Source: Diphasiastrum complanatum | Lineage: Eukaryota; Streptophyta; Lycopodiopsida; Lycopodiales; Lycopodiaceae | Reading direction: 5' to 3' | Length of the DNA: 64,000 nt | Assembly: GCA_029204225.1 (NCBI GenBank) | Contig: CM055099.1 | Coordinates: forward strand, 45,031,489 to 45,095,488 | Shown here: positions 4,052 to 60,955 of the stretch, one piece after another | Numbering within the stretch: position 1 is the first letter of the stretch | How the letters are laid out: every line of letters starts with the position of its first letter | Notes under the pieces: generated by a model | What the model saw: only the letters and a program-made list of their open reading frames with translations | Database searches by the model: none | Told to the model about the DNA's origin: nothing | Position numbers and translations under genes: made by a program

Positions 4052-4980
4052 TGTTACATATCTAGATAACTAGCAGTACTTCAATAACTCCTATGTGACC
4101 ATTTAGTGTCTGGGGGGCTAAATGGCGAGTCACCCTTGAATAAGGAGTACCCTTGGATTAAGGGTAGGTGCCTTTGGATTAAGGTACTTGTGTCCTTGGA
4201 TAAGGGCATGTAGGTGTCTATGCCTTGGATGGAGGCATGGAACCTAGTGAGGTGTTAGGAGGACCTTACCATGGGTATTGGTCATTTTCCTAGACCTTGG
4301 GCCTCAACCTTGAGCCTGATCACATAATAGGCCTTGGGCCAAAGTTAGCTATCACATAAGGGTCATGGGGACCTAGTAAGAGGGCGCACCTAGTAGGGTC
4401 CCTTGATGCCCCTAAAGAACCCAAGAAGTTATAACCAAGAACCATAAGTTATGGAAGGTGTCTTTTGACATTCCACTAACTTGTGAGCCTCTTGGCCTTT
4501 CCTTTGCCTCCCCTTTTCTCATTGGCTTGTGTGGACATTCCATAGTGCTGTGAGTCATTGGCATCTATAAAAGAGGGAGAGGGCACCGAACTCAAGGGAG
4601 ATTTTCGTGGTTGTTGCTTGCTTCTATTCGCTAGTGGAAGGCTAGTGTGTAGAGAGCATAGATTTGGCTTGCTTGTTCTTGAGAGGATCACCATCTTTGG
4701 TATGGGACTTAGATGGGGGTAGGATCTTGAGCATGCTTGTGATTGTGATGGTAGTGATTGTGGTTTAGCAAGGGGGTGCTAGATAGTCTTGCTTGTGCAT
4801 AGATCTAGCTATGGTTGGGTGGTGAATTCTTGAGGCCATTTGATTGTTTACTTTTGGAAGAATCTTAGGAGCATCAGAGGAGAGGCACATTAGAGGGCTT
4901 TTGGAGGCATTGGTGGACATCAACTCAGAGGCTTGGTGGGCAACTCTTCCTTGTTGTAAAAGTAGACAACCATAATTCAT
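4052..4980 (+). repeat. LTR of the second chromovirus (3' end uncertain)
   Basis: Starts TGTTACATA at 4052, right after a purine tract. Contains a TATA box (TATAAAAG, 4566-4573) at a plausible promoter distance. The right boundary is not visible: no terminal CA followed by a primer-binding site or a recognisable duplication was found, so the end is a guess. Short internal CCTTGGAT-type repeats occur at 4130-4240. No coding sequence is seen here. Confidence 0.55.
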
Positions 4981-4984
4981 GCTA

Positions 4985-5429
4985 AAAACACAAATTTCAG
5001 ATCAGACCCTCTTTTAGAAATCACCCAAAAAGTTACACAAAATCGAATAGGAATCCAATTCATCACTTAAATTTGCACCTATTAATGTTTGCATTTGCAA
5101 ACAAGTATGGACAACTAACACTATCAGAAAAACGTCCAAAATAGGTGAAAAATGCACCTTCAGACAGCAGAAAATTTGCCCATAGTGAAGAAAATTTGTG
5201 CCCATTCTGCTAAAAAAATGCGCCTCCTTGCTGCTTGGAAAATGTGCCAATGAATCTGCATCAAACTCGCTCACAAAGACATTGTAAAGTGTGCCCAATC
5301 TGCTTGAAAATGCACCCTTCAGAGACTCCATTTGAAGGAACAAAATTGCCCATCTGCCTACCTTCCAATATGCATAATAATCTCTAGGATGTAGAGGCTA
5401 TGAGTGTTAATCATGCAGCCTATGAACCC
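4985..5429. other. No gene seen; probable leader of the reverse-strand LTR element
   Basis: This stretch lies immediately downstream (on the reverse strand) of a primer-binding site. It has no reading frame similar to gag or pol. It could be the leader of a truncated or non-autonomous LTR element. Confidence 0.4.
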
Positions 5430-11866: not shown

Positions 11867-14293
11867 CTGCTCCTGTTGCTCCTGTGACGGAACTACATCG
11901 ATCAAGTTCTTGAGACTCAAATGAGGAGGCAAAGCAAATCTGCAATGGGTGGAAGAAGCCTTAGCTTTAGAAGAGATTTGTGTGGATAGATATAATGCTC
12001 ATCACCAGCATCATTGAGAATATAGTTCATGTTAAAAATTGATTCTTGTCACCAGTAATGATAACATCAGCCTCAAATCCTTGCTAATTTGAAAATTGTA
12101 TCTTCTTATTCAACTATTTTCTTGGATGAGTTTTGAAGTAGACCTGTTTTTTTTGTCAGCTTCTCTGTGTCCTAGCCTTGGAGTGTCAACAGTAAGTACG
12201 ATTGCCTTGTAGCCTGATTTTTCTGCTCGTTGGACCAGCTGAATTGCATTTGTTTTGTTGAAAATCTGTCAGCTAGATGCAGAAACAGAGAACTTGGTTG
12301 GCAACACCTCATTTACTGCAGACATCAGACAGCTTTAAGCACCACCTCTGTATGAACCTACAGAGGCTACACTAGGGTGGTAGACTCCGCTGTTGTGACC
12401 ACTCTTCTTTTCAAAATAGGAAATACAGATTTGTGATGTTGAACAGAGGTATTTCTCACAGGAATGGAAGAGTCTCCAGAAAGCTAGATATTGGTTAAAT
12501 ATTAAGAAAAAAGACAGCTTGCACTGTGGCTTGCATAACCAAATTGCAACCAAATAAAACTAACCCATTAACAGTGATTCATAGACACGATGAAAGGGCA
12601 CAATATCATAGCAGCATGCATTATTGAGAGAGAACTGTGCCACAAGTGGGAACAAGGCGAAGGATGTCAATAAAAGTAAATGAGTTAACAAATGTAACAG
12701 CTCCTTCAGTATCACATACAAAGAACCAAGCAAGATACACATGGAGCTCAACCTTGTCTATTGTTATCTTCTATTCTTATCACTAAAAACTGACACTGAC
12801 TATTAGTTTAGAACTGCAGATTGGAATCCTCAAAAGTGGCCTAATAGCTTTATAAGAAACAACATCAGAAAATTAAATAGATAACCTCCTTGTAATAGTG
12901 CCATCAATGAGCTTCAAGGGCTTAAAAGGTATCAGTTCTCAAATGAATAGAGAGAGAGAGAACATAATCAACGCCTTAAAGCTAACAGTACAAGAGAGAA
13001 CATGATATACTCATGGCACAAACGCTGAAGAGCATAAACAAATGATAAATGTAATTCTGTTGTAGATCTTCCTTATCTGGAGAATGTTCAATTGCATAAT
13101 GAACCCTCCAATTTGCACATAAAACTTCAAAACCTAGAATCATAGAAGCTCACATTATTGTATTAGTAAAGTTGTCCAAAAGCATTGTTATTTGAACAAT
13201 GAGCAAAGAAAATGATAAGAAAAGAATAAGGAAAACTCACATATAACTGAAAGAAACGTATGCCAGAATTTAATTGAGCAACTTCTTCAATGCTGCTGGT
13301 GGCTCCAGTTGAGAGAACCTGTACAACAAAATATGATACCATATACTTGGTCTTGCAAATAATCACCTAATACTGGTCCAGAGAACATGAGCTCAATGTG
13401 AAATATGGCATGATACGAGATGACTTTTCTTGATAGAACAACTTTGTACTTCAAAAAATACAAAACAAGATAAAATTATCCACAAAGTCAAGCTTTCAAC
13501 TAAAATATAGCCATCTAGAGGACTTTACCATGACTGTGCCTGCAGCAGCCGCAGCCTGTGCAGTGGCTAGCTCTCCTGTCAGCAGGATGGGACAGTGCTT
13601 TCCGTTAGAAGAGTTTCAATAATTGCTCATGAATAACAGATTAAAACTCAGTCAAATTCTGCAGGAGGACAACATACCGTCTGGATGTGCCATTTTGTGC
13701 ATTGAAGTTGGAGCGATCATGACAGGCATGGTAATATCAAATCCTAGCACTCTCGTACTTAGATCCACATTGCTAACATCCAGTAGTATTCGTGGCCAAA
13801 TTCTGAGCCCATACACCATCAAGGGAAACAATTGGCAATTTGGTAATAAGCTTCCAAAGAACTAATAATGAGGTTTTACTTGCAATGCATGTTCAATGGC
13901 TGTGCCGTTTTCAAACATTATGTGGACAGTTAAAACTTTAAAGTTTCCCTTAAGAATCTTAAAACTGAAAAGAGCAATGCAATAATAACCAATCACTTCA
14001 TAATAGTGTCCAAATACACATTTATTCTGTCTGGTTATAAAACTGGAAAACCATATAATCCTTAAATGAATGTAATGCCAACGAAGACTGTGTGAGAGCA
14101 TGCAATTAACATGCACAGCAGATGCTGAAAAATAGATAGGTCTCAACCTGATTGTTTGATATGCTCTCTCATTTTCTTCCAGTGTCCACTCATCTTCGGC
14201 CCCTGAAGCATAAAAGCCATAAACCATCTTTGGGAGCTTCTGCTTTGCCAGCACCTGAAACTCCTTCACGTTTACCACATCCGTTGCCATCAT
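11867..14293 (-). CDS. (S)-2-hydroxy-acid oxidase (glycolate oxidase / HAOX-like), exons 1-6, 3' part missing
   Basis: FMN-dependent enzyme that oxidises 2-hydroxy acids to 2-oxo acids with H2O2, normally in peroxisomes. Reverse-strand exons are 14293-14148, 13802-13678, 13575-13529, 13318-13241, 12265-12144 and 11939-11867. Each is bounded by AG and GT and all phases join, giving 197 open residues of about 365. Recognised blocks are K-L-P-K-M-V-Y-x-F-Y-A-S-G-A-E-D (exon 1), P-R-I-L-L-D-V-S and [16 protein letters not shown] (exon 2), A-T-S-S-I-E-E-V (exon 4), [13 protein letters not shown] (exon 5) and F-A-L-P-P-H-L (exon 6). Phe where glycolate oxidase has Tyr24, and N-V-K-E-F-Q near the start, favour the HAOX branch. 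The exons carrying the catalytic Lys, His and Arg are not found in the 11.8 kb below. They lie across a retroelement-filled intron, outside the window, or are lost. Confidence 0.88.
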
Positions 14294-14299
14294 CTTCAA

Positions 14300-14640
14300 T
14301 TGCTCTTATTGCACTTCAGAATTGCTCAGGAAGTACTATAAGAATCCAACAAAACAGCTATCATCATCCACATTCTCTAACAATTAAAAGGAAAACACTA
14401 AAGTGTCATACCACACTAAGAGAAGTGTTGTGATGATAACCTAATATGTATAGTCACTAATGAAGTTGTATCTTCTAGCAAAACATACCACTTTTTGAGT
14501 GGATGGGTGGTCATGTTTTTATAGGAACGTTGTCGATTATAAAGTGATTGATAGATTGCAATGAGATGAACGCTAAAAGTTTTGGTCGCTCGCACTTTTC
14601 TTTTAGATTGTATAAAAGCATTGGCTTGTGTCATAAAAAA
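14300..14640. promoter_or_regulatory. Upstream region of the oxidase gene
   Basis: Lies 5' of the oxidase start on the reverse strand, so it should hold its 5' UTR and promoter. No TATA box or named element stands out clearly. Confidence 0.35.
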
Positions 14641-31206: not shown

Positions 31207-31559
31207 TCCAAATCTGGGGTTCAAGCTCTCTCGATTTGAGCTTGCTGCAGTCTGGCCTAAAGAAAATTAAGCTTTTCTTATCCTGTGAAGATCTAGTTTC
31301 AAGCCATCCGTCCACCAATAGCCGATCTCTGGCTCAAGTGAATTATTCTTCTCTAGCTTGGAAATCTAACTGAGTTTTTAGCACTCCCTAGCAACATCTT
31401 TAATGAGCGGGACGTACTTGTTTATTTTTTTCTCGAACAAGTAATACATAGGCATTATGCGGTCAGTGGTCAGCAGTACTCTGCATTTTTGGCATTTGAG
31501 ATCTGAAAATTCCTAGTTATCTACAGAAAATCATCGTCCATGATAAAGTCACGTGTCAT

Positions 31560-32543
31560 ATGAGAATTTCCGAAGCTATTTATTCTTTGGATAATCTTCA
31601 GGGAACATTTTTAGCAGGAAACAGTGAAAGACCCACCATGTTATCGCAACAAGGCATCGATTGTACGGTTCCTGACGATTACAGTAGCCTCATCGCCAAG
31701 GAAGAACCATGGCAGGGACAGCAGGAATGCAGTATGTGCGGAGATGTGGGTATTTCTTCGGAGCTGATTCAGTGTACGAAGTGTCTTCACAGGTTGCAGC
31801 ACAAGTATGTTAAAGATTATAGCACCTTTCTTTCTTCTTGCACTTTTGAGTTTCTTTCAAGAGCAAGTTAGCTTCGTTTGCTCTAATAAGATTTAACGAG
31901 AAAGACATAGCTGGTCTCTAAAAATTTTACTTGCTTATAAATGTCACCCTTTTCATGCAAATCAAAGTTCAACCAATGCTGCGTAAAGAGAGTTTCTTTC
32001 ACGATTCAAAATGTCGTTTTCAGGATAATATTAATTTTAAGCTTTTGAAGCTTGGAAAACTCAAAACATTGTAAATTTGATCGTCGTTCTAGTGCATGAT
32101 CGTTGTGTTTTCTCATCAGGTATTGTAGCAGAGCATACCCAAATATAGCACTTGATGAGTGGATGTGCGACTGGTGTAATAACAATGTAGCTTATATGGA
32201 AGACTTTACTCAAAATTCGAAGCGAAATGCCACAATGGAGATAAACACGACCAAAACGCATTACAAAGATGCATTCGAACTCTTACTTGAAGTTGCTCAA
32301 CAAACTTCAGAAAGGGAATGTCCAGACCCAAAACCTGTTGCAAAACAAGGACGCGGCAGTAAAGACAATGATTCATGCGCCAGGTTTTTACAGGTTCCCA
32401 AACGGCAACGGTGCACTTTGACTTTGAAAAACAAACCAATGATGGAAAAGTGGAAGCCGTTAGATAAGAATAAGCTGCATCCTACATCCTCAGCAAAAGG
32501 AATTGGACGTCGCTACAAACTTCTTTCAGATGTTCTTTGTTAA
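31560..32543 (+). CDS. Two-exon PHD-finger protein
   Basis: PHD fingers read the methylation state of histone H3 tails and occur in plant nuclear chromatin regulators. Exon 1 is 31560-31804 and exon 2 is 32120-32543, with a GTATGT donor, CAG acceptor and 315-bp intron. The join restores H-K-Y-C inside the finger. The product is 222 residues. Zinc ligands are Cys57, Cys60, Cys72, Cys75, His81, Cys84, Cys98 and Cys101, with W97-type D-E-W-M-C-D-W-C at the end: the full Cys4-His-Cys3 pattern. The remaining 120 residues are polar and basic (K-R-Q-R near the end) with no second domain. An internal Met at 31638 is an alternative start. The finger resembles the N-terminal one of the AIPP2-like plant proteins, which are longer, so this may be a short paralogue or a truncated gene. 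Confidence 0.82.
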
Positions 32544-49299: not shown

Positions 49300-50840
49300 A
49301 ATTCCACAAGGATTCCGTTCAAATCTTCGAGAGACCCTTTGCATGCCCTTCATGCCTGTCATGTGAGACGGCGGAAACTCAAACATCTGATCTCCATTGT
49401 ATTCGTTGGGCATTTCATTTGTTGCTTTAGGATTTCCACAAAGCTTGATGATTTTTCACAGCTTGCTTGACAAAGGCAAATTTTGGAACAACTGTTAAAT
49501 TGATAGTGCAGGCTGGCCGACTGGATTTTCACCCACATTCATCTTTGTGATGTGAGCAGGTCTTTCATCCTCACTAGAGGTGGTCAAGATTAAATTGACC
49601 TGTTGATCCATGCTTGTTGATGGATTGATTCTTGCAGATGGAACAACATGAAATGGAAATCTCAGTATAGATTTTGGAGAACCACGATTTCAACGGTGTG
49701 TGAATCACTTTATATCGTCTATCAACAGATAAAGCTCCATCTGTTGTAGAGGGAGAAAATTTCCATGCCAGAACCAATCATCATTGCTCCTCCAGATGGC
49801 TATTGAAATTCGGCTACATTATTACGGGAATGGGCTTTCCTGCCAATTATGACAGCCACTTTCAACTGTCACAAACTAGCTTCCAAAAGAGCTATACAAT
49901 CCCATGAAGAATTAGACCCTGTTAAAAAAAGTAACAAAATTCAAAATTATGTTACAACCCATTGATACACCCATGATATGAATAACTTGCTGCTCCCTTT
50001 CTTAAGTTAACGATTTAGTCCAATTCTTGGATCAGTTATAGCAATTTATGGGAGAACGAAACTAAGAATATATATATTGGATTCCTTGAGCCCAACGCAT
50101 CGACCATTAATAACCCCATTTAAGAACATGAGTTGGACTGTACAGTTATGCTTCCTACGCCCAACTCTCAATATCCCAACTCTCAATATGAGTCCTAATA
50201 CCCAGTATCTCGAGAGAAAGAAAAACATGGTATATCATGCTAGTCCTAACTGTCCTATCAATAGCCATGAGGCCTCTACAACTACTTGCAAGTTGTCATT
50301 CTTGACTGTTCGAGAAAATTGACATAGTATAAAAATAGAATTTGCAACTTTTCTCAAAAATCAACTGCAAAAATATAATGCAGGATGTTGACTTTTTAAT
50401 TGATAGAAATTTTATTTTGTAAAAAAATTTATGTTTAGCAAAATGTATTTAATATTTTAGACTGTTGGCTTTTGAATATACATGATGCATGGATGCATTC
50501 AACTCGATGGGCTCATTGGTGATTAGGTTTTAGGTTTCTAAGGTTTTAGCACTTCTTCTTCTTCGTGAAAGCACTTTATGCTCTTCCTAGTGAATGCAAA
50601 TGCACTTTTCAAGAGCGATGAAGGAGGAGCTTTTATTGGAAGGAGGAGCGACAGAGGATTAGCTTCGATACGGGGGAGCATTTGCAAACAAGTTAGATCT
50701 AAGTTTGGGCATACATTTGTAAGTTTCCTTAGGACTTTTTCATGTTTGCCTCAATGAAGCTATGGCCTTTTGTGGATGAAGAGGCCCGCTGTAGGTTTCT
50801 GCCTGAGAAAGTCAGCTGGTTGCTCGCTGATAAAAGTGAG
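49300..50840. other. Mostly uninterpretable; possible gag/protease region of the gypsy element
   Basis: Sits upstream (reverse strand) of the RT above and should contain gag and protease if the element is co-linear, but no zinc knuckle or D-S-G motif could be read. Confidence 0.35.
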
Positions 50841-50850
50841 ATTCGTTTAT

Positions 50851-51018
50851 TTGCCAGGCAAATTTTTTTTGCTTGGTGGCGCTAATAGAAGAGTGGTTGG
50901 TTTCTTTGCCAGACAAGTTTTTTTTGCTTGGTAGCACTAATAGAAGAGTGGTTGGTTTCATTGCCAGGCGAAATTTTTTTGCCTAGCAACACTCCCTCCC
51001 TCCCTCCCTCCCTCAGCG
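50851..51018. repeat. Three 55-bp tandem units followed by (CCCT)n
   Basis: Units start TTGCCAG at 50851, 50906 and 50961, exactly 55 bp apart. A CCCT microsatellite follows at about 50993-51014. Confidence 0.88.
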
Positions 51019-51073
51019 CTCCCTCCCTCATCGCATTCGGATGTTTTGTTATCTTGTATGAGCATTTTTTTTT

Positions 51074-52395
51074 GCCAAGCAAAACAAAAAATATGCTTGG
51101 CAACTGGTTGATCGCATTTCTGCAGTTCTATTCATCCGCTCTGCCTTTGCGATCATTGATGGTACATTAGGTTCATAGATTACATTTCAACTTCTGAAGT
51201 AGCAATTCTATGTTTGAGACAATGCTCCTAAACAATGAACCTTCTCAAGACAGACAGCCGTTGAATAATTAGTGAACATGACCTTAACTCGCATGCTCAA
51301 GGATTACACAAAATGGTCAGCAGTCTATGAACCTGCTACAAAATTTGCTCCACGAATGAACAGTGAGTCTCAGAAACTGATTGGTCTTCAATGTAGCAAT
51401 AAAGTCAACAAATAGAATGCTCTTAGGCAATGATCATAATGATAGTCATTTTCACTATCAATCAATCAATGGCAAACACTCAATAGAGGTAGCCGCTCAT
51501 AAGTTCGCCTATGAACTCTCTCAAAATAGTAGCAAAGATTCATAGTTAGGCAGTTTATAGATTCATCTTCAAGTGTCGATCATTTTGTTCAATTGCTTGT
51601 TGCTTATGACTGAATGTTTGATCTTCCAATTTTTCAGATCAAACTTTGGATGCATTTCACAGATGATCAGACCAAAATTTCTCTCTACATTTAAACGTGA
51701 AGCTCACATGGAGCGCTGCCAGGCAAATTTTTTTTGCTTGGCAGCTCTGTCTCATTGTCATGGAGGGTAGATATGAGATTTAACTGAACACTGTTAATCA
51801 GTTCTTTAACATATGGAACTTCATAATTGAGAGCTTGACCACATCAAGGCTTTGTGGTTTTAAATCATCTCTTGTGCAGTCATAGAAATTTAATCAAGTT
51901 TTAACTTTTCTACTAAATGTACAGGAGACAGGCCCACCATTTACCCATGCGTTGATGTACATTTTCATGTTTTGTACTCAGCTCAGTACAGGAAGTCCTG
52001 CAGGTTAAGAGTAGTTGACAATCAGCTACATGAAGCTCGATTAAGGAAATGAGTAAAAAACTAAAAAAGATTATATATAAGAGCTGCCACTCTCCATAAT
52101 CATGCATTAATCCCATCCTTGATAAATCATGAGCCATGTGCTAGAAGGATTGGTGAAGCAGGGTAGAAGATAAGATTGGCAAATCTCCATGACGATGAGG
52201 CTGATCTGTCAGACCAAATTTTTTTTGCCTGGTAGCATTGCTCACCAGCAAGCAATGCTGCCAAGCAAATTTTTTTTGCCTGGCAACGATGCCTCACTCA
52301 TCGCCATGGAGGATTGCCAGGCAAATTTTTTTGCCTACTACCATTGCTCGCCGATGAGCAATGCTGCCAACCAAATTTTTTTTGCTCTGGCAGCT
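51074..52395. repeat. Dispersed palindrome GCCAGGCAAA-T-run-GCCTGGC, six further copies
   Basis: Copies start at about 51074, 51718, 52208, 52260, 52316 and 52366, in addition to the three in the 55-bp array. Each has arms GCCAGGCAAA and TTTGCCTGGC around a T-run of about eight. In the last cluster the intervening DNA is itself palindromic (AGCATTGCT ... AGCAATGCT). Confidence 0.85.
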
Positions 52396-52913
52396 CTGCC
52401 TTATGGTTCTAATGACTGTTAAGCTAATGCTCTTGACAAACTTAATCCATGTCTGTGAAGATTGCGACTACCCTAATCTACATTGTTGTAGCCTAAGCTT
52501 CCCTCTCTGCAGGATTTGCCCTATTAATTATATGTTGCTAGATAGATTATCCAAGCCGTTAACCAAAACATGATATTACCCTACGATTTTTAAGTTGGTA
52601 GATACCTTAGAACGAGGTTTCTTAAAAGACTTTTGGTATATGTGTATATATAAGTTAGTAAAATATGTAACACAAACTGTATATCAATGACGATTGGTTT
52701 TGTGTTCGCTCTATATATCAATGACATGACTGGTTTTGTGTTCATGTTGGGTATAGGCACATACATCTTGTTGTTTGGGATTTAGAAACTTCGATAGCTC
52801 TTGCAAGGAGTTAATCGGTGAGATGGACTACCTTTGGTTACCTTGAAAAGTTATGTATTGTGATCACCACATAAATTTTGTAAATCTAACAATTGGTGAG
52901 TTGATTGGACAAT

Positions 52914-55900
52914 ATGGTTTTGACAAGATCACAAGCAATAATATTTTTGCAATTAGAACAAGTGGATGGAGCCGACGTGCCACTTTCAAATGAAACTTTG
53001 ACAGAGGATGTGAGTATGTGGTATTTTTTTTTTGTCATTGCATTTATTTAGGTGGTAGCAATGACTTCAATATGTGTGTGTTTCTAGGCACTTCATAGAA
53101 CCGATTGATGAGATGCACATTACAAGAAATCAAGCATGCCTAGAGGATGTTGAGCTTACACAAGCATCCCAATCGCTTGTGGAGATAGCTACAATAACAG
53201 CAAATGTTGATGATGCCCATGAAGCTGGAGAGGTGGCCGATTTGGGAGGTAAGCGTAGCGCAGGCATCCCAAGGGGAGCCGGGAACCACGACTTAGCTTC
53301 CCAGCCTTCAACTCTTGCCATCCAAACCCACTTGACATACAAGCAGCCAACTCGCCGTCTCCGGGGAGCTGGCATGCCAAGGCAAGTGCCAGGACAACAT
53401 TCCAGCAAGGGAGGCTGAGACTTGGTTGGAGCTCGCCCTGAGTCGCAACCCGCACTTCCCTATAGTATTGGTGGGATTTGGCACTCCCCCCCTCATACCA
53501 AGCACTCTACCCAGGCTGGTAAAGCACGTTTCTCTCTCTCTAGGATTTTCTCTCTCTAGAATGTCATTTTCTTTCTCTAGATTTTATTGATCCCCAGGCT
53601 TCCTTTAATCATGCCTTGATTGTGTGAGGTAATTGCACATCGATCTGAGTTCTCTGGACTTCGCTAGAACCGATCAAAGATTTTCAGCCATAGGAACTTG
53701 GCGCCGGCTGAATTCTGGTCACAGTGGCGCCGGGAGCGGCGCCGGCGCCGTTGGCGCCGGCAGCAGCAGGGGCGCTGCTGGCGCCAGTGGCGTCGGAAGT
53801 AAAGCTTGTAAAGGTAGCTTTACAACAGTAAGAGGGGTAGAAAGAAGTCCATGCTAGTTGACGAGATAGGTAATGTGCCTTTGACATTCCATCTGGATAT
53901 GTTGTCAGTGACAATGGCTCGATTGAGGGTAAGTCAAGACTCTCTACCCCTTTTGTTTCCTTTGTGTTGAATTGCCGCATAAAGCTATACGGACTATTGG
54001 AAAACAAAGGCTACGTATGAAACATATATTTGGAGAAGATGGATACTTAATGGAAAAATGTGACTTTATATTGTCAATGGCAACACCCTCAGGTCAGAGT
54101 GTCCTTGTAAACGATCATGTAAACGCTTTTTGGGATCCCATTTGGGAACAATTGATATCAAGACCCATCCTGGAGTGATATGCAAGGCTGCATGTTCATT
54201 TGTTAGGATGGAAATCATCGGGCTGCAAGTTGGATGGAAGCCATACATGAGGAGTTTGCATGTGATATAAGCAGACATGTGTCGGTACGAGCTAGCTTCA
54301 TTGAGCCAGACGTCGAAAGTGGAATGGCGCTCCTATCTTCTATGAATCGAATCAATATGTATGTTAAACATCTCCACTATTTTTAGTACTCTTTTTTTTG
54401 CATTGATTACTTGAGTAATGTGTTTGTTAAATTGTTGGCCTTTTTGTACCAGACTAAACAAGATAGGAATTGTTAAGACCGAGCTGGGTGATCAGTTGTA
54501 TAGTGTTCGACAATTGTGTGAGTGCTCATTTGAGTATTTCAAACTTAAATTTACAGAGACAGAATTGGCCGAGGTGGAGAAGATTCAAGTGGTTGAAGTG
54601 GTGTATTGGTCCAATGAGCGGTCAATTTGGTATCCCCAAAAGTGACAAAGAATTCAGATTATGGGTTGTCAAAGAAACTTGGCTGGAGTGTTCATTAGAA
54701 ACAAACAAAGTGCTAGCGGAGTGTATGGCTTTACGTAAGTATTTGAAATGTTTTTGCAATTTGGATCAATATTTTGCTCCATATCTCACTTTGATAGTAG
54801 ATAACAGTCCAAGTAATATAGCATTGACCATAATAATCGGTTCTACTTGTGCTTATATGTCATGTTCATTGTTGAAAAATAAGAGCCTTATGCAAAATTT
54901 TACATTGTTAGGGCCATTGCATATTGGTGATGATGAGTCACTAGAAGATTATTTCATAGATTTCAAATTGCAATATAGACGAAAAATGTTTTTTACTATT
55001 GGGTGCGACATGGATTTATCAAAAGGTGCCAAAGAGCAACCAGACATAAGGGGAAGTGCAAAAAGAGTTGTATGGAGGTAAATGAAATATTCATTTTTTA
55101 TTTGTTCAACTAGAGGCAAAATTTGCACACTAAATTTTTGGAGTATAACAATGTTTTATCGTGCATTGTAGGTACATTGCATATCTTGTAAGAAAGAAAA
55201 AGGTTGAAAAGATGCCATCGTACTTCAAACTTTGGACACAAAGACGGGATAAAGAGACTTGTATGTATTGTGACGATTATCATTTTTGTGCCAAAAGAAG
55301 TCTAAGTGAGTGAGAGAGAACAAACAATCCCTGGTGGATTGATTTTCCAGAAGGTTCTTGCCCGGAAAATGAGATGGAAAGCTATCACATGCATAGTAGC
55401 GGAGCTTTGTCTACCCCCAGTGTGGATGTTGACGTACCACACATGGAAGTTGAGATGGGCACTACATTGGAGACAAGATTGAAAGAAATAGAATTGCTTG
55501 ATTCTGATGTAGTGCCTAGACAACGTTTTGCTAGAGTGGGTCGTAAGGGGAAGGAACATGCAGGGGCTCCATTTATGGACCCATCTTTGGTTGTGACTTC
55601 GAGTGCCAAGCGATAACGTGATGAATTTGTATTTGCTCGACCTGCACACTACCCACTCACTAGTCATAGCAAGGTTTGTTGAGAATTTTATTTGATAAGT
55701 TTGGAACATATTGTTTTTTCGCCTATGTTGTGTGATTGTGACATATAGTTTTTTTTTTTTGTGGTAGATATTCACTTTGTGTGGAGACATACTCAATATT
55801 GTGAAATGTGCTACTGCTAAGACCACTGCAAGTGAGATGCATACCATTTTGTCTCATATGAAGACAATTTGTGTGGGAACTAGAGCACGACGAGGTAAAA

Positions 55901-57007
55901 GCGTGCAATACAGCACATACATGGTTTTGCTAGACTTTCCTATAGGTTTTATATCAAATGGTTTTGCTAGAAAAGTGCCTGTATGGAATATACTTGATGA
56001 TAGATTGATGGAGGCATCAATGCAATTCGCATTAGCAATTGTCAATGATGATGGTCTCATAGTCAGTATTTTAGGAGTGCCAGAGATACCGACATTTGTT
56101 AGAGTTGCTTCAAAGTCTGGATTGAAGGTGGTGCATCATGCTATTTTGCGAGAGGTGATGAATTTGGCATCACTGCGATGGGATTTCAGGTGAATTTCAC
56201 CTCAACATATGTTCTGGCAATGTCATTGTTTTTTTCTAGTCTTTGAGTCATGATTTTGAATCTACATACCATTTTTTCACATGTACATATACTTGTTGTT
56301 TATGTCACATGCCGCATCGATTCATCTCCTTCGATTCCTATGGGTGATTGCGACTCGATTGATCCTTCCCTTTTCCATAGTGTGACTGACCATTGGATAC
56401 ATTACTCTTCTCTAGCAAATAGACTGAAGGATAGTAGTGGTACTCAACCACTGCGTGGAGGAGTTGAGAAGAGCCATTCATGCGTTTCTTGGTGGAAATG
56501 TTTTGTAAGTCTTCAGGAGTTGTGGTTGATCCTTTTCTGGGTTGTGGAAGATCATTGTATGCATGCAGAAATACCAGCCGACATTGCATAGCCATCGTCG
56601 ATATGGCCACCCATAGATATGGTATGCAAATGCTGCAATTAGTATCAGTACAAAAATGATATTTCAAATTTGTTTTGTTAATGTTAAACACACCATATCT
56701 TGTTATGTAGAATCGTCCACTTCTGTCGCACATGCACAACAGATTGATTCGGACGAAGAGGAAGACGTGCAAAATGAAACATGGGATTTTGATGAGTTTC
56801 AAAATTGGTATGTCAAATTTATAATGCATTCTTCGCTTGTTTCGATCTCAGTGTTGTGCTTGAGTATGCTATCATAACGTTAGTTGTTTGCCATCCTATG
56901 CAGAGGTAGCGGCCAGAGCCATGGTACTTCATGAGGCTACACCAACATTAAGAAAACATAAACAACCTTCACGAAGTATGTATGTTGATGATGAGTGCGA
57001 GGAGTAG
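52914..57007 (+). pseudogene. ParB-like plus permuted DNA methyltransferase gene, multi-exon, broken
   Basis: Proposed role: a DNA-modifying enzyme combining a ParB/sulfiredoxin-fold domain with an N4/N6-type DNA methyltransferase. Exons with consistent phases are 54207-54358 (starts D-G-N-H-R-A-A-S-W, the ParB GNHR motif), 54453-54734, 54912-55077, 55172-55673 and 55768-56189. Upstream exons (53088-53253 continuing at 53833-53928, and 52914-53009) and one near 53964-54110 are less certain. C-x2-C-D-D-Y-H-F-C near 55262 may bind zinc. L-L-D-F-P-I-G-F (55925-55950) sits where motif IV belongs. V-V-V-D-P-F-L-G-C-G-R-S (about 56518-56552) is motif I. The order IV then I marks a permuted (beta-type) enzyme. 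An acidic segment (D-S-D-E-E-E-D, 56750) and the TAG at 57005-57007 end it. Damage: TGA 55311-55313, TAA 55614-55616, frameshifts near 54637 and 56480, and a 574-bp insertion. Confidence 0.7.
53249..53832. mobile_element. 574-bp insertion in the ParB-methyltransferase exon, 5-bp target duplication
   Basis: GTAAG at 53249-53253 and 53828-53832 brackets the insert. Removing the insert and one GTAAG joins D-L-G-G to K-R-G-R-K-K-S-M-L-V-D-E in one frame. The right end on the reverse strand begins TGTTG, as an LTR would, but the other end reads ...TACG rather than ...CA. The insert is GC-rich and contains TTGGCGCC near 53699 and several further GGCGCC palindromes to 53790. Best guess is a degraded LTR-type or non-autonomous retroelement. 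Confidence 0.6.
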
Positions 57008-57009
57008 TG

Positions 57010-58000
57010 TTAGGTCACTTTATTTTCTCATGTGAATTTCATCTCGTATCCCGTAAATGCTAAAATACTACTTGAACTCAAATATCGTACATTTGCATCT
57101 GGATTGAAGACCAATTTTATGGTTTTGAAATGGATCAGTGTTTGTTTTGGTCTTGATTTACAAGAACATCTCAATGTCATAGGCTCGTGCAGTTGTGATT
57201 TTTTGTTTTGGTAATTGGTATTCTAATATGGGGTATGCATTGGTATTCTAATATGCACAATAATTCCGAGTGAAGTTGGATTAGAAATTTTGAGATCTTT
57301 CATATTGAGACATGCAGTTATGGTTTTTATTTTGGTACTCCAAAATGCACAATAATTGCGAGTAAAGTTGGATTAAAATTTCTAAGAACTTTCATAATGA
57401 GATAACACTAAAAGATAATGTCATAGAGGTTTGTGCTTTCAGTATCATGAAGTGGATCAATCTTGTCGTCCTCTAAATTGGGAAATGATTTGAGAGATAT
57501 TTTCATATTTTGTAATTGCCCCACTGTGAAATAACACAGTCACGCTTTCATCAAAAACATGTGAACTATATGTATAATACCACGTGAGTCCTAGCATAAG
57601 CGACGTGAGTCCCAGCATACATGCTCACTTAATGGTCTCATTTTTTGTTGATCTTGCCAATCAAATATATCGATACCCTAAAACTCGCAAAACTCGCATT
57701 CTATTTACTCACAAAATGGTCGAACTCTTAAAAAGCCTCTACTGTCCTACTATATCTGCAGATTGCCATATCTCCTCTTATGCTCTGAATATAGTGGTTA
57801 TTCAGCCTCCTACATCCATCTCTTTTGAGTCTTTGCAGGTGTCTTAGGAAGAGAGCTGTAACTTGGGTCTGCCTTCATATCTTTTTAATATCCTGTCTGA
57901 TCTAAGAGCAGCTTACACAAGCTGCTAACTAAAGGGAACCTTACCCTTTCAAGCCTTGGACAGTAAAGGCAGAGTTCACAGTAGAAAGATTTATATCGCC
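57010..58000. other. Downstream flank; no gene seen
   Basis: Contains an imperfect direct repeat (about 57253-57311 and 57345-57405) around ATGCACAATAATT and AAGTTGGATTA. No coding motif. Confidence 0.4.
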
Positions 58001-58007
58001 TGCCTAG

Positions 58008-58703
58008 TCATCTTGAGAAGCCTCGCGAGTTCTTGAAGAAGTCAAGTAATCCACGTAGCTCATTTGAGTACGACCTTATTGGCCTGGAGTCAACAAAATA
58101 TGTAGACAAAAGCTTTAACTCATCAAATGCCAGGACGAGTGGTTTCACTGACAACTCTCTACTATATAACATAATAACAAAGAGACCAAATGCAAGGTCA
58201 AGAATCACAAATAAGATGTCTGTCAGAGCTTTCTTGATTGACAAGGTAGTGGGCAAAGCTATCTCCAAAAAGCGTTTCCAAACGCGGGACAATTCGCTGG
58301 TCAGAATAAGCAAGACAATGTTAAATAAAATACACAAACCCTGTGCTAAGCTTCTCTGTTCCATCCAGTCCTGAGATGAGTCTATGACATTTGAACCTTG
58401 CAGCCCATATTTGTAGACAGCTTTCGAAGATACTTCAGGACAAGTAGAGTGATGTGCGTGAGGCAGAACATGGCGCCACTCCTCTGATGTCGAGTAGGGC
58501 GCCGAGGAATCATTGATCGGAGAGGCAACCTTTTCGTTATCATTTGATTCATTCTCGGTTTTCAAAAGCCCAATAGGGTTGGATTCCGGAAACGAATTGG
58601 GCTTGAATGCTAGTTTTCTGTGCTTTCTGCGTCCCAATAGCGACAACAAATTCATGCTATTCAGCTTCCTTACAACTCGCAGCTTAACCGCTTTGATGGC
58701 CAT
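58008..58703 (-). CDS. Small predicted membrane protein of unknown function
   Basis: Single reverse-strand exon of 231 codons from ATG 58703. The N-terminus is basic (about residues 7-34, rich in K and R), and residues 35-115 are polar and probably disordered. Two hydrophobic segments follow, about residues 118-135 (Q-G-L-C-I-L-F-N-I-V-L-L-I-L) and 161-180 (D-I-L-F-V-I-L-D-L-A-F-G-L-F-V-I-M-L), separated by a charged loop. A basic tail ends in S-R-G-F-S-R. This suggests a two-pass membrane hairpin with both ends on the same side. No family recognised. The frame is long and open in an otherwise decayed region, which supports a real gene. An AT-rich TATATATA lies immediately upstream, too close to the ATG to be a normal TATA box. 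Confidence 0.6.
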   Translation of the reverse strand: MAIKAVKLRVVRKLNSMNLLSLLGRRKHRKLAFKPNSFPESNPIGLLKTENESNDNEKVASPINDSSAPYSTSEEWRHVLPHAHHSTCPEVSSKAVYKYGLQGSNVIDSSQDWMEQRSLAQGLCILFNIVLLILTSELSRVWKRFLEIALPTTLSIKKALTDILFVILDLAFGLFVIMLYSRELSVKPLVLAFDELKLLSTYFVDSRPIRSYSNELRGLLDFFKNSRGFSR

Positions 58704-58719
58704 CTATATATATCGCACC

Positions 58720-59100
58720 CTCAACACTCAACTGCTTTGCTTCGCCAGCCACATCGGCTATAAGCAGTTGATTTGAGACAAAGCTGGAAAAGGATCGCTA
58801 GGATCTAGATCTACGAGCAAGGGCCTGATGGATGCGATCACCGAGCAGAGATCGGCGAGCACATGAAAGAAGAAACAGCTTCGCCATGAATAAATAGGAG
58901 AGAGATCAGATGAGGATGTAGGCTGTAGGGAAGTGGGAACTGAAATTGGAATAGTTTGAAGCTGACCAAGTCGTACCCTGGTCAAAGTCAACATCTAAAA
59001 GTGAAGGGTAGTGGATTACTAGTCAAGTAAGTTGAGCTTTTTTTTAAAATTGACCATGGAATCCTACCCCTCGCAGCGGCCCGCCTCCACCCAAGAGGTG
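58720..59100. promoter_or_regulatory. Likely 5' region of the membrane-protein gene
   Basis: Reverse-strand upstream sequence. The open frames here are short and have no motif. Confidence 0.3.
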
Positions 59101-59187
59101 TGTGCAACAAATGCTATGTGGAGTTGAGTCCTTTTGATTTGACCATGCTCCTCACGCTCTCGAGCCTCCTCCACCGGCGGCACCCTT

Positions 59188-59498
59188 GCCCGAGCCTCCT
59201 CCTCCACCATTGACTTGAGACACCTTCGCAAGTGTACATTTGTCATGTCGTAGTTGTTAGTTGTTGTGCAAAGTAGGTTGAGAACACTTTGCCCGAGCCT
59301 CCTCCTCCACCGAGCACTTGAGATACCTTCGCAAGTGTACATTTGTCATGTCGTAGTTGTTAGTTGTTGTGCAAAGTAGGTCGAGAACACTTTGCTCAAG
59401 CCTCCTCCTGCACCGTTGACTTGAGACACCTTCTCAAGTGTACATTTGTCATGTCGTAGTTGTTAGTTGTTGTGCAAAGTAGGTTGCAAACACTTTGC
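59188..59498. repeat. 103-bp tandem repeat, three copies
   Basis: Units begin near 59188, 59291 and 59394. The core AAGTGTACATTTGTCATG recurs at 59230, 59333 and 59436, exactly 103 bp apart. A CCTCCTCC-rich segment precedes each core. Confidence 0.9.
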
Positions 59499-59639
59499 CC
59501 ATAACTTTCTAGTCATTCACATTAAATAAAATGCATTTACCAAATAAAATTACAAACAATACAACTAGCCAATGAACAAAAGCTTAATCTCTTAATACGA
59601 AATTGAATTTACATATGATTAAAATTAATATAAACCCCA

Positions 59640-60955
59640 AAATTTTAAAACATTCAAAAGAACTTCATACTATTGTTTTTTTCATGCTATGCTCAATTTT
59701 GCTAGTGCTCTTTACCTCTCTCACTTCTTTACTTAAAGCTTTCGTAAATATATCAACAACTTGTAACAACGTAGAACAGTGTACAATACTTATATCTTCA
59801 GATTGTAGTTTTCACACACAAAGTGATATTTTACCTCAATATGTTTTGTCCTCGTGTGAAAGACGAGATTCTTAGCCAATTGTATTCCAGTTTGGCTGTC
59901 ACAGAAAATAATAGTAGGATTTACCTGCTTCATGCCAATTTTACATAACAACTTACGTAGCCAAATAGCTTCTTGGGTGGCAGAACTTAACGCTTTATAT
60001 TCGGCTTCTGTAGAAGAAAGAGAAATGGTATCTTGCTTCTTGATAGACCATGAAAAACAACCGCTACCAAAATTGAAGGCATAACCTGTTGTTGACTTTC
60101 TATCATCTACATTTCCTGCCCAATCAGCGTCAACATAACCCTGCAATTTAGGTAAAGCACTTTGTCTTTTGTAGATCAAGCCAAGGTTAGGTGTACCTTT
60201 CACATACCTCAAAATCCTTTTTGCAGCTTTCCAATGGTCCATAGTGGGTGATGACATGAATTGGCTAATCAACCTTATAGCATAGCAGATATCAGGACGT
60301 GTGGTCGTAAGATATATCAAACTCTCAACTAGCTGACGAAATAAAGTAGCGTCAACATGTGCACTATCATCAATATGAGATAATTTCTTACCAGCTTCGC
60401 AAGGGGTGATGGAAGGTTTGCATTCTGTCATGCGAAATCTCTCCAATACCTCGCGCACATACTTGTTTTGACATAACCTGATATCACTGCCAATTTTCCA
60501 TACTTCGACACCCAAGCAATAGTGCATAAGATCTAAATCTGTCATCTCAAATTGCTTGTATAACTTGGCTTTGATAGAATGAGTGTTCTCATCATTGCCC
60601 GTGATAATGATATCAATAACATAAAGTACAATCAAGGCAATGCTATCTTCGTTTATAAGAACATAAAGATTTGGTTTTGAATTTGTTTTTACAAACCCAT
60701 GAGAAAGAAGTCCACTTAGCCACTGGAGCAAATGTCTCTTCATAGTCAATTCCTTTATTTTTCTCATAGCCCTTCACTACTAGGCGTGCCTTATGCTTTG
60801 CTATCGTGCCATCCTCATGAAACTTTGTTCTAAACACCCATTTGTTGTCAATGGGTTTCTTTCCAAGTGGTAGATCAACGAACTCCCATGTATCATGCTT
60901 GTGGATGGATTCCATCTCCTCTTCCATTGCCCTTTGCCATTCTTTGTGATCCTTT
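59640..60955 (-). pseudogene. Ty1/copia RT and RNase H, internally deleted
   Basis: RT starts at M-E-E-E-M-E-S-I (60927), reads K-W-V-F-R-T-K-F and H-K-A-R-L-V-V-K-G-Y to E-T-F-A-P-V-A-K-W (about 60720). It then jumps to L-S-H-G-F-V-K-T-N, losing the middle of the RT with its first catalytic Asp. The second motif reads L-Y-V-I-D-I-I-I-T-G, with Ile replacing an Asp. RNase H (Y-V-D-A-D-W-A-G, L-S-S-T-E-A-E-Y) is otherwise well preserved. After TAA near 59790 the tail V-V-D-I-F-T-K-A-L-S continues in another frame to about 59690. Confidence 0.92.

Follow-up and report, generated by a model that had tools for sequence, protein, structure and literature searches.

Fusions of a ParB-like segment to an N4/N6-type DNA methyltransferase have been described in algal transposons (PMC12477816, in the part of the article available), and the red alga Asparagopsis has 66 N6_N4_Mtase genes, where three others have six, five, and four (PMC12115072, likewise from the available part). 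Here, a gene of this general kind is described from a land plant, the lycophyte Diphasiastrum complanatum. It occupies positions 52914-57007 on the plus strand of a stretch of 64,000 nucleotides (the window; C8:45031489-45095488) taken from an assembly of 1.74 Gb in 5176 contigs. The copy in the window is a dead relic of an apparently intron-bearing gene, and a functional window copy is not supported. When all the evidence is weighed, the balance tips towards a plant gene family, dispersed and high in copy number, of which the window holds a dead member and in which a gene with a ParB-like part and a methyltransferase part is carried as the accessory gene of a mobile element. The window copy is read as follows:

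52914..53009 (+): first coding exon, beginning MVLTRSQA; its splice phase into the next exon is not clean
53089..53253 (+): first part of the ParB-like exon, interrupted by an insertion
53254..53827 (+): 574-bp insertion within the ParB-like exon, with a 5-bp flanking repeat (GTAAG); not in locus L045
53828..54356 (+): second part of the ParB-like exon, with DGNHRAASWMEAIHEEF at 54207 and at least two frame breaks; the homologue in L045 (reverse complement, 4208-4999) is open
54456..54733 (+): middle exons, with a frame break near 54640
54912..55077 (+): exon running from GPLHIGDDESLEDYF to VVWR; the homologue in L041 is at 2469-2714
55172..55673 (+): exon running from YIAYLVRKKK to TSHSK, with in-frame stop codons at 55311 (TGA) and 55614 (TAA)
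55768..56189 (+): exon E9, the N-terminal half of the methyltransferase, with motif IV (DFPIGF) and a frame break near 56160
56322..56621 (+): C-terminal half of the methyltransferase, with motif I (DPFLGCG) and a frame break at about 56468
56711-56807 and 56904-57007 (+): acidic C-terminal exons, ending in DDECEE and a stop codon; conserved in L039 and L040

The motifs on which the original prediction for this locus was built are all present, namely GNHR at 54207 (as part of DGNHR in the upstream exon), the DFPIGF of exon 55768-56189, and, at 56468-56621, VVVDPFLGCG. Its proposal of an apparently intron-bearing gene also stands, whereas its claim that the exon phases join cleanly does not: the reading is interrupted by the stops at 55311 and 55614, by the 574-bp insertion, and by frame breaks, one set lying within 53930-54207 and the others close to 54640, 56160, and 56468. 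Around 54640, the window has lost some 130 residues of L041 and L042. At the sites of the two window stops, L040 is open at both and L039 at 55614, and the start of the first exon has counterparts in L043 (SMVLTRSQAK) and L041 (SMVLTYPMAK). In L045, which lies on another contig, the ParB-like exon reads without interruption for 264 codons. An intron reading of the window between 53250 and 53985 was rejected, since L045 has one open exon there and the window has the insertion and a frame break. A protein length of about 870 residues comes from a preliminary exon model that was partly revised after the comparison with L045. An inverted copy of window positions 49995-59950 is found 228 kb away (L038); because it carries the same damage as the window and is 98.9% identical to it, it is judged to be a segmental duplicate. 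The 574-bp insertion contains a GGCGCC-rich stretch and looks by eye like a retroelement fragment, and a 95-bp piece of it recurs in L043.

The methyltransferase half is recognisable by profile. Window positions 56468-56659 match the Pfam family N6_N4_Mtase (PF01555) with an E-value of 2.8e-6 and 27.9 bits, the cut-off being 26.7 bits, over profile positions 170-209 of 221, and the methyltransferase piece of the window matches the DNA-methyltransferase family phrog_67 in PHROGs (E 3.8e-8). Joined exon readings of 870 and 220 residues scored slightly below the PF01555 cut-off (24.4 and 26.4 bits, respectively), and the DFPIGF exon alone matched no Pfam or PHROGs profile; the paralogous locus L041 reached 36.4 bits. 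When L041, L042, and the window copy were aligned and compared, using hhalign, with an alignment of eight phage and bacterial ParB-methyltransferases, the probability was 97.5 and the E-value 5.6e-12, with a score reached by none of 100 column shuffles. The aligned span extends from ADFIFMDFPTDF on ANLVVTDPPYNV through DPFVGCGST on DPFGGSGST, and motif IV precedes motif I, which is the permuted order of the beta class. When the E9 exon family was aligned by itself, DFPT fell on the phage DPPY, and the hhalign score was 25.9, a value that 0 of 100 shuffles reached (the highest of them scored 22.1). As far as sequence can indicate, these results support a permuted beta-class amino-methyltransferase fold of prokaryotic type in a eukaryote, as had been proposed for the locus. 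No relative was obtained when protein databases were searched with the window gene (8000 and 528 candidates scored); since the share of plant proteins in the database is unstated, this is no evidence of uniqueness. Bacterial and archaeal genomes yielded no confirmed relative, and tblastn against phages gave weak matches in 573 records, with a best E-value of 8e-3 among the 20 matches listed.

Within its own genome, the gene belongs to a numerous family. In the genome searches with exon E9 and the DGNHR exon, a match was defined by E <= 0.001 and 150 candidates were scored per query. Exon E9 gave 513 first-look candidates and a 50-residue stretch of the DGNHR exon gave 406; in each case, all 150 scored candidates were matches. 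Identity for E9 ranged from 30 to 100%, and the DGNHR matches were located on all of C1-C23 as well as on smaller contigs. Many of the family copies carry stops; the copies are many, dispersed, and subject to decay. The two exons also occur together. Taking 150 DGNHR and 145 E9 places (five second E9 fragments were excluded), 31 same-strand pairs lie within 5 kb of each other, several of them near-identical duplicates, so that the independent events are fewer than 31. In every pair DGNHR comes first, at a distance of 467 to 4634 bp, while opposite-strand pairs number 0 and chance predicts 0.06. Given that this pairing in one strand and one order is far above chance, there is good evidence that the DGNHR and E9 exons belong to one gene.

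Two members of the family, L041 and L042, share a DNA identity of 77-78% and have open frames across six compared exon blocks. The ratios of non-synonymous to synonymous divergence (dN/dS) in these blocks, whose ends were trimmed manually, are 0.17, 0.09, 0.13, 0.01, 0.20, and 0.15, at a synonymous divergence (dS) of 0.57-0.78. With exon dN/dS values of 0.01-0.20, the protein was under purifying selection in the L041 and L042 lineages.

Assignment of the upstream segment to ParB is a motif- and position-based reading, and several results weigh against it. No family in Pfam, PHROGs, or NCBIfam fits the DGNHR exon or its relatives, and searches of the PDB with the ParB-like exon gave either no match or matches at chance level. 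A search of the whole genome with the PF02195 profile produced 0 matches, while the same profile was positive in 10 of 14 control genomes. DGNHR and MNRIN do align on two phage ParB boxes, but only weakly (E 0.03 and 0.055), and 4 of 60 shuffles scored at least as high. Where the original prediction expected profile matches to both parts, the methyltransferase was found and a ParB domain was not; of its expectation of an intact paralogue with both parts in one transcript, the co-location of the parts was borne out by the 31 pairs, and L041 and L042 are paralogues with open frames in the exon blocks compared.

The catalytic motif of beta-class enzymes has the form [DNS]-P-P-[YFW]. Sequences named as forms of the motif in the available part of PMC8885841 are SPPY, DPPY, NPPY, and DPPW. 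The window subfamily departs from this pattern: in the window and in L038, its segmental copy, motif IV reads DFPI, and all five of the other relatives read (L039, L040, L041, L042, and L043) have DFPT. All four aligned rows share the D and the P in third position, and the aromatic residue is not retained. The subfamily therefore appears to possess the fold, and is not classed as an active member. Motif I reads DPFLGCG in the window and in L039, DPFVGCG in L041 and L042, and DSFLSCG in the decayed copy L040; the binding of S-adenosylmethionine (SAM) looks kept. Methyl transfer, on the other hand, is doubtful, because the aromatic residue of motif IV is missing and because a change of SPPY to APPA abolished the activity of a rotifer enzyme (PMC8885841, available part).

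This leads to the strongest of the alternatives, in which the fold is kept, catalysis is dead, and the protein acts as a DNA- or RNA-binding factor. Such a reading falls a little short of an even chance, and its odds overlap those of the others since it fits either origin of the family. It draws on the replacement of DPPY or SPPY by DFPT (L039-L043) or DFPI (window), on the DPFVGCG retained in L041 and L042, and on the inactive rotifer mutant, whereas the invariant D and third-position P speak against it, as does the aromatic residue preserved in a second methyltransferase family of the same genome ([DN]IPYGF).

This second family makes up most of the scored PF01555 matches in the genome. The profile gave 1605 first-look candidates, and 150 of the 150 scored were matches, mainly to the second family; the window exon is absent from these 150. 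Twenty stretches (L018-L037) were compared by exact pattern: motif I, as LDLFSGSGTT or LDMFSGSGTT, occurs in 15, motif IV, as DIPYGF or NIPYGF, in seven, and a ParB-like box, GGIHSLQA or GGIHNLQA, in four. All three boxes are found together, in the same order as in the window gene, in two of the 20 (L024 and L037). The 3' end of the family is abrupt at GGTCATCATG in four loci with differing flanks. The following positions illustrate the family:

L024 3079-5025 (+): second-family example
L037 (-): second-family example
L031 6183, L033 3622, L036 3716, and L037 3587: shared 3' terminus ...TTTTTTTGGTCATCATGTT, with different flanks in each

The second family did not match the window gene significantly by tblastn (best E 0.10), which counts against a relationship; a putative kinship between the two is read from domain order and motifs. 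As a candidate for an active amino-methyltransferase, the second family, with its intact-looking motif IV, would rank ahead of the window subfamily. Four PF01555 matches at C22:12333634-12347569, all on one strand and spaced by about 4.5 kb, form a tandem cluster, along with which a copia-like frame is repeated in L030.

The window gene lies inside a larger repeat:

49335..57727 (+): repeat unit shared piecewise, by blastn, with L045 and L046 (start) and with L040 and L043 (end)

Homology starts abruptly at 49335, with window positions 49335-50537 matching L045 at 92% (blastn), and in L040 as in L043 it breaks off at 57727. L045 and L046 are 99.6% alike and are not independent. On account of the copy number and the abrupt ends, a mobile element is favoured, and the gene is probably, not provenly, transposon-borne. 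A number of observations argue in the opposite direction. The ends at 49335 and 57727 show no terminal inverted repeat, and no target-site duplication was found for the repeat unit. The sequence read contains no transposase, and 49335-50600 is, by eye, without a long coding frame. L043 and L044 share 8.4 kb that extend past the repeat unit of the gene, which points to segmental spread, and the segmental copy L038 demonstrates that part of the family has spread via duplication. Within the repeat unit and 5' of the gene, a short unit around TGCCAGGCAAATTTTTTTTGC is scattered over 50850-52403 in seven or eight copies.

These same observations could be accommodated by a domesticated host multigene family that expanded by segmental and tandem duplication and has a cellular role, for example in DNA or chromatin binding or in methylation. 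The several apparent introns, the purifying selection in six of six exon blocks, the segmental copies (L038 and L043/L044), and the lack of a transposase in the sequence read all speak for such a family. Less easily explained are the 406 and 513 first-look candidates, the scored DGNHR matches on every one of C1-C23, the many copies with stops, the end of homology at 57727 in the independent copies L040 and L043, and the abrupt 3' end of the second family in four loci with different flanks. A host family is considered rather unlikely, and the transposon, as the probable reading, is ranked above it.

Large DNA viruses and phages often encode amino-methyltransferases and ParB-like proteins, and the locus might be imagined as the remains of an endogenous DNA virus (a giant-virus insertion, for instance) with a ParB-methyltransferase among its genes. 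The several apparent introns do not suit this origin. No relative of the E9 exon, or of the queries A3 and A2, was confirmed in viral contigs, and no viral Pfam match was obtained from the eight frames run out of 49 in the window of at least 110 residues, with no systematic search for viral core genes. In the absence of a viral relative, this explanation is rejected as very improbable. Chance similarity in degenerate DNA, with no gene at all, might be suspected from the heavily broken window copy, but the profile matches, the open exons of the paralogues, and dN/dS values well under 1 make it practically untenable.

In the preferred reading, with the gene carried by a mobile element, the intact protein would have its ParB-like (DGNHR) segment at the N-terminus and a beta-class amino-methyltransferase fold at the C-terminus, separated by a long region, and it would be produced from a transcript in which the exons are spliced. 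The ParB-like part would bind DNA, and the protein would bind SAM and act on DNA. The gene would have travelled with its element, as is reported for algae, and might mark or shield the element's own DNA. Replacement of the base-pocket aromatic residue of DPPY by T or I may have altered or abolished methyl transfer, with SAM binding kept.

It is tempting to speculate further that the plant lineage contains two large, mobile, intron-bearing families of ParB-like/amino-methyltransferase genes. Members with [DN]IPYGF may write N4-methylcytosine (4mC) or N6-methyladenine (6mA) on element DNA, and the DFPT family would keep the fold and the SAM site under selection with an altered tetrad. This wider picture is tentative, and at present somewhat doubtful. 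Were it true, the DFPT family would be a class of SAM-binding, DNA-directed proteins new to plants. Both 4mC and 6mA are contested in eukaryotes, and their known writers are few. The at least 150 scored PF01555 matches, together with the open and constrained related genes, provide a concrete set of proteins for assay; activity of the [DN]IPYGF members would predict that nanopore or PacBio reads show 4mC or 6mA on the copies of their own elements. For the ParB-methyltransferase genes of algal transposons, counterparts in one plant are suggested.

The surroundings of the gene have the character of plant nuclear DNA, with copia- and gypsy-type fragments (RVT_2 and RVT_1). A plant setting is indicated by PF25054, a plant PHD family, in the window. 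Two conserved domains were matched by Pfam:

31500-31868: plant PHD finger (PF25054)
13862-14302 (-): exon of an FMN-dependent dehydrogenase (FMN_dh, PF01070), which we take by eye to be glycolate-oxidase-like

Downstream of the gene, an ATG-started open frame of 231 residues at 58008-58703 (minus strand) has no match in Pfam, and a tandem array at 59186-59500 comprises about three copies of a 103-bp unit with 91% matches.

Among the described systems, the phage and bacterial ParB-methyltransferases have the same order of a ParB domain followed by a permuted methyltransferase, and they align with the plant family over motif IV to motif I. The protein of Ruminococcus phage NatCom_28274, however, has 415 residues with PF02195 and PF01555, no introns, and DPPY, whereas the plant proteins have some hundreds more residues between the two parts. 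The bdelloid rotifer enzyme N4CMT resembles the plant family in being a eukaryotic, intron-bearing, permuted N6_N4_Mtase; it differs in its SPPY motif, in its chromodomain, in existing in Adineta vaga as an allelic pair instead of a dispersed family, and in being a proven writer of 4mC (PMC8885841, available part). The 4mC methyltransferase of Marchantia sperm is also a bacterial-type amino-methyltransferase from a land plant but, going by its description in the available part of PMC8885841, it has no additional N- or C-terminal domains. The transposon gene of the alga Ectocarpus (1104 residues; PMC12477816, available part) is, like the plant family, eukaryotic, and encodes a long protein in which a ParB-like segment is combined with a methyltransferase domain of the N4/N6 type. 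Compared by description, the plant family differs in that no transposase partner was found, in that its ParB is not detectable by profile, and in having DFPT or DFPI as motif IV. No ParB-methyltransferase from a land plant was present among the open-licence literature matches listed. In view of the algal fusions, to call the system undescribed, as the original prediction did, is too strong. What is new here is the plant host and the altered catalytic motif, in a kind of gene that is already known from algal mobile elements.

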